DNA of 64,000 nt from Flavobacteriales bacterium UBA1494 (GCA_905182175.1 CAJJAT010000009.1:62001-126000); one strand, 5' to 3'. Positions 57,140 through 64,000 are shown, counted from the first letter of the stretch. The notes: generated from the letters alone by a model not told the origin. Numbers and translations: made by a program.

Positions 57140-58927
57140 TTAAATTTTAACTCCTATAACAATTATGTCATCCACTTGCTCTTCATCTCCCATCCAATCG
57201 GAGAGGTGATCTCTAAGCAAGTCTTTTTGTACGGAAAGGTCTTTGTGGCTATTGGCAATTAAGGTGTCTCTGAATTTTTTATACATCATTTTTTTACCTT
57301 TAGGTCCTCCAAATTGATCGGCGTAACCATCTGAGAATATGTATAAAAGATCACCATCTAGAAGTTGTATTATATTGTTGGTAAAGTTTGGTGTTTCCCC
57401 GTCTAGAAATGAACCAATTGGAAATTTGTCTCCTTTGGTTTGAATGATATCTCCATCCCTTAACAAGTATAGCGGATTAAATGCTCCTGCGTATTGGAGT
57501 TCTTTTGTCTTACGATTCAAGCAGCAAATTGCAACATCCATTCCATCTTTTGATGTTGAGTTTTCATCCTTTTGATGAAGTGTTTCAGAAACTCCAACAT
57601 TTAGGTGATCTAATATTTCTGCAGGCGTACCATTGTTTGTTGTAATTAAAGCCTGTTTTAATTGGTTGTAACCAATAATACTCATAAATGCACCAGGAAC
57701 TCCATGCCCTGTGCAGTCAACAGCAGCAAAATAGACTTCATCCTCGGAGGCTCCAAGCCAATAAAAATCTCCACTGACCATATCTTTCGGTTTGTAAAAA
57801 ATGAAAGAATCCGGCAATAATTTACGTACGTAGCTTTCAGGAGGCAAAATTGCTTCTTGAATTTTTTGAGCATATTTGATGCTATCAGTAACTTCTATGA
57901 AATACTCTTCTATCTGCTCTTTTTGAATATCAATTTCTTCCTTTTGTTTTACTACTTCTGCAGTTCTTTGTCGTACCTTTTCTTCAAGGAACCTTTCATT
58001 TTCAGCTAAATCGTCACGCATTTTTAATAATGCTTTTCCTAAGCTATCTTTACTCGAAAGTGGTTTGTAATCTGTGTCAAAATTACCTGAGCCTACCTCT
58101 TGTGCAAAGTCCTTCGTTCGTTTTAGACCGTCAACAACGTTGTTCATCGCTACTGACATTTCTCCAATTTCGTCATTACCGGCGGATGTTGCCTTATCTG
58201 GGAAAACACCTCTTCCCAATTTAACAAGCACATTCTTTAGTCGATAAATAGGATCTACGATGTTTTTGGTTGTAATAATAGCAACGATTACGCTGATTAC
58301 TATGAGTGCTATACCTAAACCAATAACCAAATTTTTAAGAAAATCAAACAGTTTGTACATGCTGTCGTTAGCAGTATTGGAGACTTGCTTTTGATTGGCA
58401 ATTAGACTGCTTAGTTGGTCTAGAATATTAGAAGTCATGGTATGAATTTCGCCACCTTCTTCTAGGCTGTATTTTGCTATAAATTTACTTGATCCATCTT
58501 CATAGTCTGAAAAGGACTGTAAACTGTTAATTAAATCGTTGTTTTGTTGCGTAAAAAGCAAGTCAATCTCTGAAAACAAAGCCTGCAAAGTGTCTTGTTG
58601 ATCTTGATCCCAATATACTCCGAGTTGTGTTAGCTCGTATTTCAACTTTGGATAATCGTCATTTCTAAATTTTATGAGGTTATCCTTGTCTTGGTGAGCC
58701 TTGTTTTCTTTAAGCCAAGTCTCTAAAAACACCTTTGTTTCTAGTATCGAAAACTTAAGTTCTTGTAAAGCTTTTACAGAAGGAGTGTTTACGCTACTAA
58801 TTCTATCGTTGGTGGTCCTAGATCGCTCTAGAGTAACATAGGTTGTTATGAATACAATCATGGTCAGTATAATTAATATACCAAAGCCAGATGCAATTTT
58901 TTTGCCTATTGTAAATCGAAAGTTCAT
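57140..58927 (-). CDS. Membrane HAMP-SpoIIE serine/threonine phosphatase (PP2C)
   Basis: The 595 residues run: transmembrane helix 1 (FGILIILTMIVFITTYV, about 14-30), a four-helix periplasmic bundle (about 30-185), helix 2 (LVIGLGIALIVISVIVAI, about 197-217), HAMP (about 218-270, DPIYRLKNVLVKLGRGVFP), a coiled coil (about 300-355, EEKVRQRTAEVVKQKEEID) and a SpoIIE/PP2C domain (about 370-595: YKPKDMVSGDFYWLG, VDCTGHGVPGAFMSIIGYNQ, DGMDVAICCLNRK, LLYIFSDGYADQFGGPKG). It should dephosphorylate serine/threonine on an anti-anti-sigma-like or other partner in response to a periplasmic signal. It is 25 bp after a TPR protein gene and in line with a YfiR-like gene, likely its sensor. Confidence 0.92.
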   Translation of the reverse strand: MNFRFTIGKKIASGFGILIILTMIVFITTYVTLERSRTTNDRISSVNTPSVKALQELKFSILETKVFLETWLKENKAHQDKDNLIKFRNDDYPKLKYELTQLGVYWDQDQQDTLQALFSEIDLLFTQQNNDLINSLQSFSDYEDGSSKFIAKYSLEEGGEIHTMTSNILDQLSSLIANQKQVSNTANDSMYKLFDFLKNLVIGLGIALIVISVIVAIITTKNIVDPIYRLKNVLVKLGRGVFPDKATSAGNDEIGEMSVAMNNVVDGLKRTKDFAQEVGSGNFDTDYKPLSSKDSLGKALLKMRDDLAENERFLEEKVRQRTAEVVKQKEEIDIQKEQIEEYFIEVTDSIKYAQKIQEAILPPESYVRKLLPDSFIFYKPKDMVSGDFYWLGASEDEVYFAAVDCTGHGVPGAFMSIIGYNQLKQALITTNNGTPAEILDHLNVGVSETLHQKDENSTSKDGMDVAICCLNRKTKELQYAGAFNPLYLLRDGDIIQTKGDKFPIGSFLDGETPNFTNNIIQLLDGDLLYIFSDGYADQFGGPKGKKMMYKKFRDTLIANSHKDLSVQKDLLRDHLSDWMGDEEQVDDIIVIGVKI

Positions 58928-58952
58928 TTAGTAGACTTTTATCAACAGTTAG

Positions 58953-59873
58953 TTATTGTTTGTTTAGGGAATCGATCTCCTGGCGTTCATCTTCAACAGG
59001 TTTTATATCCAACGCTTCAATTTTCTTTTTAAACAACTCGGATTTTTCTGCATCGTTCATACTAAAGTATATACCTTGAAGTCCCGTTAAAGTTTCTCTT
59101 CTATTTGGGTTTAAATCGTGAGCTTTTTTCATGAAGGGTAAAGAGGTTCTGAAGATCTCGAACAATTGATCTTGCAGCATAGTTAACTCAAGTAGATCCA
59201 GACCATAATCCATTTTATTCACAATTTCAACTCCTTTGTTGTAATAGATAATGCCAATATTATAATTTGCACTGAAGTTGTTGGAATCTAAAATTAAGGC
59301 TTTCTTATACAGTTTTATTGCTTTATCTAAATAAACAGAAGCGTTGTTTGTGTCAATCGAAGAAATCCGACTGTAGGTCGCGGCCAATGCAAGGCTAAAG
59401 TTTGTATTCTTCTCTGTGAAATCTGCATTAGGCATCACGCTTTTTATTAACTCTTTATATCTCGAAAAGGAGTTAATTGCGATTGTATAGTCACTGGGAT
59501 TTGTAGAAAGAGCAGCTTGGTTGTAAAAAGTTTCTGCAAAGTATTTAATTGCATTTTCGCAGCCTTTTGCATACGGTCCTTCCTTTTCTAAACTAATTGA
59601 TTTTTTAAAGTATTTAATAGACGTTTCTCTAAGAGCAGACTCTTTATCGGATTTCTCGTCTCGCTTAAAGAGGTCTTTATAAATAAAACCCCTATAATAC
59701 CAAGTGGATGCTTTATTAATGAACAAACTATCTTCTGCAGCAGCATCGATTAATTCCTTCGCTTTATCTAGTTGGTTTTCTTTTAGGCTATAAATTGCAT
59801 TCGCTAATTTATTCTGGCCAAAAACTAGGTTTGTGCAAAACAATAAAAAAGCTATGTAAAATATTTTTTTCAT
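58953..59873 (-). CDS. Exported TPR-repeat protein
   Basis: The 306 residues begin with a signal peptide (MKKIFYIAFLLFCTNLVFG, cut before QNK) and are mostly helical repeats of TPR type: KLANAIYSLKENQLDKAKEL, ASTWYYRGFIYKDLFKRDEK, NNFSANYNIGIIYYNKGVEI, PNRRETLTGLQGIYFSMNDA. No enzymatic motif is seen, so it probably acts as a scaffold in the periplasm or on the membrane. It is 1 bp after the YfiR-like gene and 25 bp before the HAMP-SpoIIE gene, an arrangement that suggests it links the two. Confidence 0.85.
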   Translation of the reverse strand: MKKIFYIAFLLFCTNLVFGQNKLANAIYSLKENQLDKAKELIDAAAEDSLFINKASTWYYRGFIYKDLFKRDEKSDKESALRETSIKYFKKSISLEKEGPYAKGCENAIKYFAETFYNQAALSTNPSDYTIAINSFSRYKELIKSVMPNADFTEKNTNFSLALAATYSRISSIDTNNASVYLDKAIKLYKKALILDSNNFSANYNIGIIYYNKGVEIVNKMDYGLDLLELTMLQDQLFEIFRTSLPFMKKAHDLNPNRRETLTGLQGIYFSMNDAEKSELFKKKIEALDIKPVEDERQEIDSLNKQ

Positions 59874-59874
59874 T

Positions 59875-60411
59875 TCAATTCACTAAAACAGCAATATTAG
59901 CTAACGTTGAAGAAACTTTCAGGTTATTTGATTCTGCTGTTAATTTATTTAATTCAAATTTCTGCCTTCCACCCAAAATAATGAAATTGATAGATGCTCC
60001 TTTGCCTGCATGTCCTCTTGTCTCCGTAACAATAAGTGCACTCTTCCCTTTTGTATTTACTACTGCTTTTGCTAGATTAGAACTATTTTCATTTGGTATG
60101 TAAACAATATGGGATTTACCAATTTCGCTTACATCACTAATTAATTTTATTTTGAATGGCTTATTATCTACTTTCTTTACCTTCGACATGTTGGTCAATT
60201 CATTATAAAGAGATTGGTTATCTCCTAGAATCGCAATAGTAAAGTCGCTAGCTTGGTAGTCGGCGGGCCACTCTATATACTTGGTAAAGTTGTAAATAAA
60301 AACCGCCTTAATTTTCGCCTTAGTATCTACCTTATCCTCTGGCAAATCAGGGGTAAAGGAAGGCGTTAATGCAATCAAACTAACGAATAAAATTATTAAT
60401 AACTTCTTCAC
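59875..60411 (-). CDS. YfiR-like periplasmic protein (DUF4154)
   Basis: The frame is open from 60495, but the family begins near the GTG at 60411 (KKLLIILFVSLIALTPSFTP, a signal peptide); 178 residues is normal. The DUF4154 features are IKAVFIYNFTKYIEWP, FTIAILGDN, KSHIVYIPNEN, KSALIVTETRGHAGKGASIN and STLANIAVLVN. YfiR of Pseudomonas is a periplasmic sensor that inhibits the diguanylate cyclase YfiN and is controlled by disulfides. This one has no cysteine after the signal, and no GGDEF gene is near, so it would regulate something else. The operon with TPR and HAMP-SpoIIE genes points to the phosphatase. Confidence 0.88.
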   Translation of the reverse strand: MKKLLIILFVSLIALTPSFTPDLPEDKVDTKAKIKAVFIYNFTKYIEWPADYQASDFTIAILGDNQSLYNELTNMSKVKKVDNKPFKIKLISDVSEIGKSHIVYIPNENSSNLAKAVVNTKGKSALIVTETRGHAGKGASINFIILGGRQKFELNKLTAESNNLKVSSTLANIAVLVN

Positions 60412-60495
60412 AAATACTTTGTCTATCAGTTGATAAAGGTAATAAATTTTTGCAGTGTTAAACATACTGCTGATACAACTATTTTCCTTTCCCAA

Positions 60496-60882
60496 TTATT
60501 TCTTGCGAGCATTGAATAAGTTTTTATTTCCTCTTCCCCCTCCTGCATTTGATTTAGAGCGACTTCCCGAGCTTTTCATTCTTCTTCTTGGTAAGGATCT
60601 TTTTTTACCAAAAGTCCTGCCAGGTTTTTTTGATTTGCGGAATGTTCCATTTTGTGTCTGTTTTCGACGAAAAAGTTTCCTTCTTTTTTTCTTATTTTTA
60701 TTTAGCTTCGCCTTCGCACGGCCTTGAAAAGGGTTGGCTCGACTAAAAATAGTGGGGTTCTTGAATTTACCAGACGGAGCAACCTTACGGACAGATTTGC
60801 TCGTATTGTATATACTACCTCCAGGACTGCAGGCTGCAAGAGCACAAACAAGTAAAATTAAAATAAAATGCTTTCTGTTCAA
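60496..60882 (-). CDS. Small, highly basic lipoprotein
   Basis: The 128 residues start MNRKHFILILLVCALAACSP, a signal with the lipobox LAAC. The mature part is extremely rich in Lys and Arg (NKNKKKRRKLFRRKQTQNGT, KKPGRTFGKKRSLPRRRMKS) and ends in glycine-rich GGGRGNKNLFNARKK. No known domain is visible. A cationic tail in the periplasm or at the surface could bind lipopolysaccharide, DNA or peptidoglycan; that is inference. It lies directly before the YfiR-like gene, so it may be the first member of that operon. Confidence 0.8.
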   Translation of the reverse strand: MNRKHFILILLVCALAACSPGGSIYNTSKSVRKVAPSGKFKNPTIFSRANPFQGRAKAKLNKNKKKRRKLFRRKQTQNGTFRKSKKPGRTFGKKRSLPRRRMKSSGSRSKSNAGGGRGNKNLFNARKK

Positions 60883-61800: not shown

Positions 61801-62499
61801 CTAATCAACAAGCAGTTTAAACCCTTTGCCGTGGCTGTTGATGATTTGAATATTTTCGTCCTCTTTGAAAATTTTCCGCAGTTTAGTAATGTATACGTCC
61901 ATACTCCTTGAATTAAAATAGTTATCATCACCCCATACCATGTTAAGAGCATCATTTCTATCTACAACGTTGCCCATGTACATACAGAGTAACCTTAACA
62001 GTTCGTTCTCTTTTGAAGTTAGCTTCTTTTCGAAGTCTCCTCTGATGATAAGTTGCTTTTCAGGATAAAACTTGTACTCGTTTATGTCAAATTCTTTCTT
62101 GTGTAAGAGGTTGTCTTCGATTTGATTTATTCTTCGCATAATGGCCTCAATCCGTAACATTAGCACCTCCATGCTAAAGGGTTTGGTAATGTAGTCATCT
62201 GCTCCCGACTGGAAACCCATTTTTAAATCTTCTTCCATTGTTTTGGCACTCAGAAAAATAACGGGGACGCTTGACTTCAAGCCTCTTATCTCTTTCGCTA
62301 AAGTAAAGCCATCTTTTTTTGGCATCATTACATCTAGCAAGCAGAGGTCTACTTCGCTTTCAATAAATCCTTTTAGTCCTGCTTCGCCATCTCTTTTTAG
62401 AATTACTTCAAATCCTTTTACTTTTAGATAATCTGAAAGCATTTTTCCTAGGTTTTCATCGTCTTCAACGACGAGTATCGTCGTGTTTTTATTTTCCAT
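61801..62499 (-). CDS. OmpR-family response regulator
   Basis: From the ATG at 62499 (MENKNTTILVVEDDENLGKM) the 232 residues hold a receiver domain (DLCLLDVMMPKKDGF with the phospho-acceptor Asp near residue 53, VPVIFLSAK, ADDYITKPF) and a winged-helix DNA-binding domain (LTSKENELLRLLCMYMGNVV, GDDNYFNSRSMDVYITKLRK). It pairs with the histidine kinase whose end overlaps its start by about 11-20 bp. The pair resembles RprX/RprY of Bacteroidota, which I would only call a likeness. Confidence 0.95.
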   Translation of the reverse strand: MENKNTTILVVEDDENLGKMLSDYLKVKGFEVILKRDGEAGLKGFIESEVDLCLLDVMMPKKDGFTLAKEIRGLKSSVPVIFLSAKTMEEDLKMGFQSGADDYITKPFSMEVLMLRIEAIMRRINQIEDNLLHKKEFDINEYKFYPEKQLIIRGDFEKKLTSKENELLRLLCMYMGNVVDRNDALNMVWGDDNYFNSRSMDVYITKLRKIFKEDENIQIINSHGKGFKLLVD

Positions 62500-64000
62500 G
62501 AGTTGCAATTTTTATATTTATTGTTGTTCCTTTATTCTTTGCACTGTCTATGCTGATTTCTGCATGGTGCAGGTCTATAATTCGCTTCACGTAGCTCAAT
62601 CCAAGACCAAACCCCTTTACGTCATGAATATTACCTGTTGAAACTCTGTAAAACTTATCGAATATTTTTTTCTGATTTTCTTTGCTAATACCAATGCCAT
62701 TATCACTAATTGAAAGAATGAGGTCGGTTCCTTCATTTCGAGTAGCGATTGTTATTCTTGGAGTTTCTGGGCTATATTTATTTGCGTTATCCAACAAGTT
62801 GTAAATAACATTTGAAAAATGAACTTTATCTGCTCGTATACAGCTTTTTTCTGCAGTTAAATTTAACTTTAATTTTCCATTTCTGTTTTTAACTTGAATA
62901 TCAAAGTTTTGACTTACTGTTTGTATGATTTCATGGGAGCTAATCTTAACAAAATTCAATTGTAATTTTGTTGAATCCCAAACGGCACTTTTTAGAACGT
63001 TATCCACCAAAACGGACAAACGTTTGTTTTCTTCCTTTATCATTCCGACATAACTTGACTGTCTTTTGTCGTCTAGCATCAGGGTTTTATCGCTTAGGGC
63101 CTCACAAGCTAAAGAAATGGTTGAAATAGGAGTTTTTAGTTCATGTGTCATGTTGTTGATAAAGTCATTTTTGACTAAAGATAGTTTTTTCTGTTTATAA
63201 ATAGTTGAAATAGAGCTATAAAACAACCCTATTAGTATAAATATTAATAGGATGGAGATTAAAAGAACCTTCCAGCTGTTTTTAATAATGAGCGAATCCT
63301 TATCGGGGAAGTAAAGAAGTAATTCATCGCTTTCCAATAGGAAGGCATTTGGGAAAAGAGCAATGCGGTAAGGAGAGTCTCTTAGCTCACTAGATCCTGT
63401 TTCCTCTTCAGTAAAAGTTAAGCGGTTTGTTTCGACGTCTAAAATATCAAATATATAGTCGGCTTTTATTCCATGAATTATTAATTCTTTGGCGAAAAGT
63501 GAGTCCATCTTTTCATAAGAAACTAGGTCAGTATGATTTTTACTAATCGTAATAAGAGCAATTTCATTGACAAGGTCGTTCACCAAAGTTGCTTTTTTTC
63601 TGAATTGATTTTTCAGTAAAGTATCATTGGCGTAAAAATCTCTAATCGATGAACTTAGTACTCTTTTCTTAGTTTCTCGAATAATAAAATAGGAGGAATC
63701 GTTTTGAGGAGGTGGATTAAATTTTATTTGCAAGTAATCTGAAGGAATTCTAGCGATATTGTTGTTAAGAATAATGCTTTCATTTTCTTCTCTTTTTGGT
63801 TGCACATTAAGCAGAGAGTCGGAGCTTAATCCTGAGAATAGTTCTTCGCCGTCAAGTAATGAGCTTGTAATTTTAGTAACAGCCTCTTCGCGCTCTAACT
63901 TTCGAACTACATTGTTCATGACGTCCATTACCATCTGGTCGAATTGCTTTTCTTGTGTTTCCGTACTTTTTTTAACCCAGTAAGCTTGCAAAACAATAAG
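62489..64000 (-). CDS. Sensor histidine kinase, partial (N-terminus beyond right edge)
   Basis: The frame is open through base 64000, so the true start lies outside. About 504 residues are visible: the end of a first membrane segment (IVLQAYWVK), a periplasmic sensor (to about residue 240), helix 2 (SWKVLLISILLIFILIGLFYS), then the H-box FINNMTHELKTPISTISLAC, N-box VIYNLLDNANKYSPETP, and the ATP lid ISDNGIGISKENQKKIFDKFY, GFGLGLSYVKRIIDLHHAE. It is a class I kinase (HisKA and HATPase_c), overlapping the response-regulator gene, so the two form one operon. Confidence 0.93.
   Translation of the reverse strand, partial: LIVLQAYWVKKSTETQEKQFDQMVMDVMNNVVRKLEREEAVTKITSSLLDGEELFSGLSSDSLLNVQPKREENESIILNNNIARIPSDYLQIKFNPPPQNDSSYFIIRETKKRVLSSSIRDFYANDTLLKNQFRKKATLVNDLVNEIALITISKNHTDLVSYEKMDSLFAKELIIHGIKADYIFDILDVETNRLTFTEEETGSSELRDSPYRIALFPNAFLLESDELLLYFPDKDSLIIKNSWKVLLISILLIFILIGLFYSSISTIYKQKKLSLVKNDFINNMTHELKTPISTISLACEALSDKTLMLDDKRQSSYVGMIKEENKRLSVLVDNVLKSAVWDSTKLQLNFVKISSHEIIQTVSQNFDIQVKNRNGKLKLNLTAEKSCIRADKVHFSNVIYNLLDNANKYSPETPRITIATRNEGTDLILSISDNGIGISKENQKKIFDKFYRVSTGNIHDVKGFGLGLSYVKRIIDLHHAEISIDSAKNKGTTINIKIATHGK

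Follow-up and report, generated by a model that had tools for sequence, protein, structure and literature searches.

A YfiR-like protein, a TPR protein and a SiaA-type phosphatase form a conserved, putative envelope signalling unit in Bacteroidota

The 64,000-nucleotide stretch of Flavobacteriales bacterium UBA1494 analysed here (GCA_905182175.1, CAJJAT010000009.1:62001-126000; "the window") carries on its minus strand, at positions 57140-60411, a tight group of three genes that encode a DUF4154/YfiR-like protein, a TPR protein and a HAMP-PP2C phosphatase. Its host is a 3.33-Mb draft genome whose closest named relatives are Vicingaceae (Flavobacteriales). We find that this trio is a real, widespread and uncharacterised signalling unit. 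It is a YfiR-family module whose output and ectodomain are both new, and the lineage that carries it has no GGDEF domains. We consider it reasonably probable that it is a YfiR-type envelope signalling unit controlling a SiaA-type phosphatase that acts on SiaC, without SiaD.

The arrangement is conserved far beyond chance. Our order sample comprised 46 genomes, all of one family, and our phylum sample 247 genomes; in addition, 84,980 species genomes were scanned with a DUF4154 alignment. DUF4154 was found in 44 of the 46 family genomes, and gene maps placed DUF4154, TPR and PP2C genes in one order and on one strand at 39 loci. The scan returned 178 relatives, and the trio was present in nearly all of the best 80 of these, a set rich in Flavobacteriales, Cytophagaceae and other Bacteroidota. 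In all, Vicingaceae and other Bacteroidota yielded 71 distinct complete trios, with median gaps of 1 and 24 nucleotides (nt) and PP2C proteins of 589-622 amino acids (aa; median 595). An earlier note on this DNA, made from the sequence alone, had described four genes, with gaps of 1 and 25 nt between the three of the trio, and had built on the adjacency of DUF4154 and HAMP-SpoIIE; open reading frame (ORF) calls and Pfam bear out the layout, and the adjacency is conserved. Its fourth member, a basic lipoprotein, has to be dropped, as the gene keeps its position only within Vicingaceae and the trio occurs without it elsewhere. The same applies to the ferritin, universal stress protein (USP), histidine kinase-response regulator (HK-RR), exonuclease and ABC genes, which we considered as module parts and rejected because they vary or vanish outside Vicingaceae. 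The flanks, with HK-RR, USP, ferritin and basic-protein genes upstream and exonuclease/ABC genes downstream, are conserved inside the family alone, and we therefore define the module as the trio. A perfect match to the Bacteroidota -33/-7 promoter was present upstream of the YfiR-like gene in 2/39, the TPR gene in 2/39 and the PP2C gene in 0/39 cases, with no clear internal signal, and sigma-70-like sites within the trio upstream regions were at chance level.

The first protein of the trio belongs to the DUF4154 / YfiR-HmsC-like family (PF13689), which it matches with 109.6 bits against a gathering score of 24.9. For its predicted structure (pLDDT 88.7), the top Foldseek matches were YfiR structures (E ~2e-6, TM-score 0.64-0.67 by query), followed by substrate-binding proteins. 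This agrees with the periplasmic YfiR-like protein of the earlier note; a sequence search of the PDB with the YfiR alignment gave nothing credible. A C-terminal patch of the YfiR-like proteins (INF...QKFELN...LKVSS) is conserved. The TOL_0243 family of YfiR-like proteins (NF053591) matched over the whole DUF4154 domain with 109.9 bits, which is under its equivalog cutoff of 125 bits. YfiR of Pseudomonas aeruginosa contains two cysteine pairs and uses a single conserved surface for YfiB and probably for YfiN (PMC4655355). With translation of the window protein probably starting at a GTG codon, its mature form contains no cysteine, and a redox switch of the Pseudomonas kind is impossible, as had been stated before. 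Among the 71 YfiR-like proteins, 24 have no cysteine, 34 have one, 11 have two and 2 have three; with 0 or 1 cysteine in 58/71, the group as a whole cannot share a conserved disulfide switch either. The substrate-binding proteins returned by Foldseek after YfiR (8wgl and 5z6v, TM-score ~0.56), together with TonB-receptor-like genes before many DUF4154-kinase pairs in other Bacteroidota, would fit a ligand-binding YfiR-like protein that delivers a small molecule to the ectodomain, making the unit a chemoreceptor instead of a release-of-repression switch. We regard this as unlikely, given that YfiR, an allosteric repressor, ranks first and that we found neither a ligand nor a binding pocket for the YfiR-like protein.

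The receptor that follows has two transmembrane segments (TM1, aa 15-33; TM2, aa 200-218), and the region between them is all-helical in an AlphaFold2 model. Searched alone against Pfam, this ectodomain matched no family; 4HB_MCP_1 (PF12729) reached 19.9 bits, below its gathering cutoff of 27, and is not matched by the ectodomain alone. CHASE8 and GGDEF are absent from the receptor according to Pfam, and a PDB sequence search with the ectodomain gave nothing credible. A profile built from the window ectodomain (A2) and used for genome searches detected 45 copies in 44/46 family genomes; 44 of these copies follow a DUF4154 gene of the same strand at a distance of 147-1149 nt, and the remaining one is at a contig start. 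The family genomes without the ectodomain (G035 and G036; 87% and 66% complete) are also without DUF4154. In the phylum sample, DUF4154 occurs in 29/247 and the ectodomain in 5/247 genomes, all five among the 29. Next to DUF4154, the ectodomain carries a methyl-accepting chemotaxis protein (MCP) output at locus L051 and a HAMP-GAF-PAS output at L191 and L216; the last two were considered as trios without TPR and rejected, since on reading they show the same ectodomain with GAF-PAS replacing PP2C. The distribution of the ectodomain and these swaps thus indicate that DUF4154 goes with the ectodomain while the output is exchanged, a link that we consider well supported by genomics.

DUF4154 and PP2C also occur within one protein. 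In at least 11 inspected family loci, single ORFs of ~610-690 aa combine a signal peptide, DUF4154, a coiled coil, one transmembrane segment and PP2C (the domain content of the L032 fusion was checked by Pfam), and at L035, L043 and L045 DUF4154 is fused to histidine kinases. In a PP2C tree, the fusion PP2Cs fall outside the trio group with moderate support (89/92), in a tree disturbed by a long RsbU branch. It is thus unlikely that all couplings of DUF4154 and PP2C go back to one event; the two domains were probably joined more than once. The earlier note had named a diguanylate cyclase as the usual partner of DUF4154; in the wider phylum, the partner is otherwise mostly a CHASE8-HAMP histidine kinase encoded after DUF4154. 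At L204-L218 and L220-L224 from other Bacteroidota, DUF4154 precedes or is fused to histidine kinases, and several of these loci have a gene resembling a TonB receptor immediately upstream. Locus L211 (G191:C14) has two tandem DUF4154 genes beside a cobalamin-binding-like gene and no adjacent receptor.

The catalytic domain of the trio phosphatase is of the SiaA type. The SiaA model scored 218.5 bits over aa 264-594, missing the cutoff of 700 for the full-length SiaA equivalog, and SiaA-PP2C 6k4e is both the closest solved sequence (1.1e-33) and the closest structure (Foldseek 9.5e-17, TM-score 0.89 by target; next match 1.7e-9). Residues D387, D404, G407, D533, G534, D586 and D587 of the trio PP2C are invariant in 41 sequences, which covers the counterparts of the SiaA catalytic residues D457, D474, G477, D600, G601 and D653 (PMC7647112), and the signalling helix is highly conserved (85% mean column identity). 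The membrane HAMP-PP2C phosphatase described previously is thereby corroborated, with two transmembrane segments and a PP2C site intact by its residues. Seven SpoIIE-family matches were found in the window genome (four intact SiaA-type, one RsbU-like and two with in-frame TGA), among which the trio protein has the top SiaA-model score. The two interrupted SiaA-type genes, G000:C27:8075-8671 (L242) and G000:C9:131923-132519 (L245, ~6 kb past the window), are decaying paralogues or assembly errors.

Partners of SiaA are encoded in the window genome by two SiaB-SiaC gene pairs. The first SiaB scored 160 bits against a family cutoff of 85, and its SiaC is above the Pfam cutoff and has a threonine equivalent to T68 (NTSS motif aligned); the second SiaC has a serine at this position. 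SiaC is present in 46/46 family genomes and in 35/35 genomes elsewhere that have the trio or related loci (81 in total). It is the leading candidate substrate, a plausible but not specific assignment. Up to 37 SpoIIE-family matches yet few SiaC genes were counted per family genome, suggesting that several inputs may converge on few SiaB-SiaC switches. GGDEF (PF00990) was not detected anywhere in the window genome, SiaD included, so that the earlier statement on the unit holds genome-wide; this genome is one of the 43/46 family genomes without GGDEF, the matches being in G031, G012 and G037. The only match in G031, a fragmented metagenome-assembled genome, comes from a 3.3-kb contig (G031:C25, L048) with DUF4154 beside a CHASE8-HAMP-GGDEF-EAL gene, probably a proteobacterial contamination.

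Based on these genomic comparisons, we infer that the YfiR-like protein binds the helical ectodomain directly in the periplasm and sets the state of the phosphatase. By analogy with the action of YfiR on YfiN, it would probably inhibit the enzyme. The TPR protein might be a periplasmic helper that replaces YfiB by capturing or scaffolding the YfiR-like protein, a role that is a guess. A change in the envelope would alter the binding of the YfiR-like protein to the ectodomain, either by release or by conformational change, and the signal would run from TM2 through HAMP and the signalling helix to a SiaA-type PP2C dimer. The latter would remove the phosphate placed by a SiaB-type kinase on a SiaC-type protein, at the threonine equivalent to T68. 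Because no SiaD-type diguanylate cyclase exists here, free SiaC is proposed to act on some other target. The earlier note had suggested periplasmic sensing passed to a cytosolic phosphatase; the conserved adjacency, the YfiR fold, the two-segment receptor and the DUF4154-transmembrane-PP2C fusions favour this part, and the membership of the lipoprotein is what failed.

Pairwise distances fit direct contact: given PP2C, the YfiR-like protein tracks the ectodomain best (partial r 0.57, versus 0.33 for TPR), although shared ancestry confounds such correlations. Several observations weigh against this model. In two genomes, G094 and G231, the genes for the ectodomain protein and for DUF4154 do not lie side by side. 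As the ectodomain is not CHASE8, the contact known between YfiR and YfiN offers no residue-by-residue guide to this one. The separation in G094 and G231 would also fit a trio of merely co-transcribed envelope-stress genes, in which the YfiR-like and TPR proteins make no contact with the phosphatase; this is highly improbable in view of the outputs swapped on one ectodomain type next to DUF4154, the independent DUF4154-PP2C fusions and the matched presence and absence. Regarding the substrate, both SiaB-SiaC pairs are located away from the trio and three other intact SiaA-type PP2Cs are encoded in the genome, so SiaC cannot be assigned by elimination, and its co-occurrence is not specific, since it is also encoded in the two family genomes that lack the trio. 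The phosphatase could thus be controlled by the YfiR-like protein and act on something else, for example a STAS-type anti-sigma antagonist or a Hanks-type kinase target, as RsbU and SpoIIE pathways also employ PP2C domains. We find this rather unlikely: SiaA is closest by sequence and structure, well ahead of the SpoIIE, RssB and RsbU types, and SiaC is present in every genome tested.

The model of a YfiR-controlled, SiaC-directed phosphatase combines features of two known systems of P. aeruginosa. As in YfiBNR (TpbB/YfiN), a periplasmic protein of YfiR fold stands beside a two-transmembrane HAMP receptor with variable outputs. Whereas YfiN is a CHASE8/PAS-HAMP-GGDEF protein, the trio receptor has a helical ectodomain without a Pfam match and a PP2C output in a lineage without GGDEF; a TPR protein takes the place of the OmpA-like lipoprotein YfiB, no OmpA domain being found among the trio neighbours, and the two cysteine pairs of YfiR are missing. 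With SiaABCD (PMC7647112, PMC8457831) the unit shares the HAMP-PP2C of SiaA type and, in the window genome, a SiaB kinase and a SiaC with the T68-equivalent residue. It differs in that SiaD or any other GGDEF protein is lacking, siaBC lie outside the trio operon, the ectodomain is tied to a YfiR-like protein and several SiaA-type phosphatases are present per genome. Modular relatives of YfiBNR with GGDEF-EAL, HPT, histidine kinase and MCP outputs were described by Malone 2012, whose main text, supplementary tables aside, mentions neither PP2C nor Bacteroidota (PMC3375315). Kinase and MCP outputs of YfiR modules are already published; YfiR together with SpoIIE or PP2C was not found in the searchable literature, and neither was a PP2C output of such modules or the trio ectodomain.

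YfiR and SiaA have both been studied in Pseudomonas as controllers of cyclic di-GMP (c-di-GMP) and biofilms. If our model is true, each would be a portable switch that can also serve protein phosphorylation, and envelope signals could enter the cell without c-di-GMP through a YfiR-type regulator and a membrane phosphatase. The new ectodomain family predicts partners of YfiR, and the model offers a concrete hypothesis for the input of the SiaBC switch; the role of SiaC in Bacteroidota is not addressed in the searchable literature. More tentatively, YfiR-type regulators may act through a second type of receptor ectodomain, unrelated to the first, which lets the same regulator drive PP2C, MCP or GAF-PAS outputs and which in Bacteroidota feeds a SiaABC-type Ser/Thr phospho-switch without c-di-GMP enzymes, with several phosphatases converging on few SiaB-SiaC pairs.

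Coordinates of the trio, its domains and the neighbouring lipoprotein gene in the window
Feature	Position	Strand	Remarks
PP2C receptor phosphatase	57140-58927	-	595 aa: TM1, helical ectodomain, TM2, HAMP, linker, signalling helix, SiaA-type PP2C
Ectodomain of phosphatase	58331-58828	-	aa 34-199, all-helical, without Pfam family
HAMP domain of phosphatase	58121-58270	-	aa 220-269, Pfam PF00672 4.6e-7
PP2C catalytic domain	57146-57820	-	aa 370-594, Pfam SpoIIE/PP2C 1.2e-19
TPR protein	58953-59873	-	306 aa, Pfam TPR_11 5.6e-8; kept in the middle of 71 trios
YfiR-like DUF4154 periplasmic protein	59875-60411	-	178 aa from likely GTG start; Pfam DUF4154 1.8e-31; YfiR fold
DUF4154 long ORF	59875-60495	-	full ORF call, including the part before the likely GTG start
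Basic lipoprotein	60496-60882	-	neighbour, outside core module; no Pfam family

At the level of ORFs, the gaps are 25 nt between PP2C and TPR, 1 nt between TPR and DUF4154, and 0 nt between the long DUF4154 ORF and the lipoprotein. An alignment of starts in relatives points to the GTG at 60411 as the likely first codon of the DUF4154 gene, and the spacing to the lipoprotein gene is therefore ~84 nt. The N-terminus of the TPR protein resembles a signal peptide that closes with FGQ, and no lipobox was seen. Upstream of the trio, most Vicingaceae loci contain an RprX/RprY-like two-component pair (61801-64000 in the window), with USP or ferritin between. After the trio, large exported proteins of ~850-1600 aa are encoded in many loci (L052, L054, L058, L140 and L186); most bear an N-terminal 'PE.INYQAVAR' motif and are possible surface proteins.

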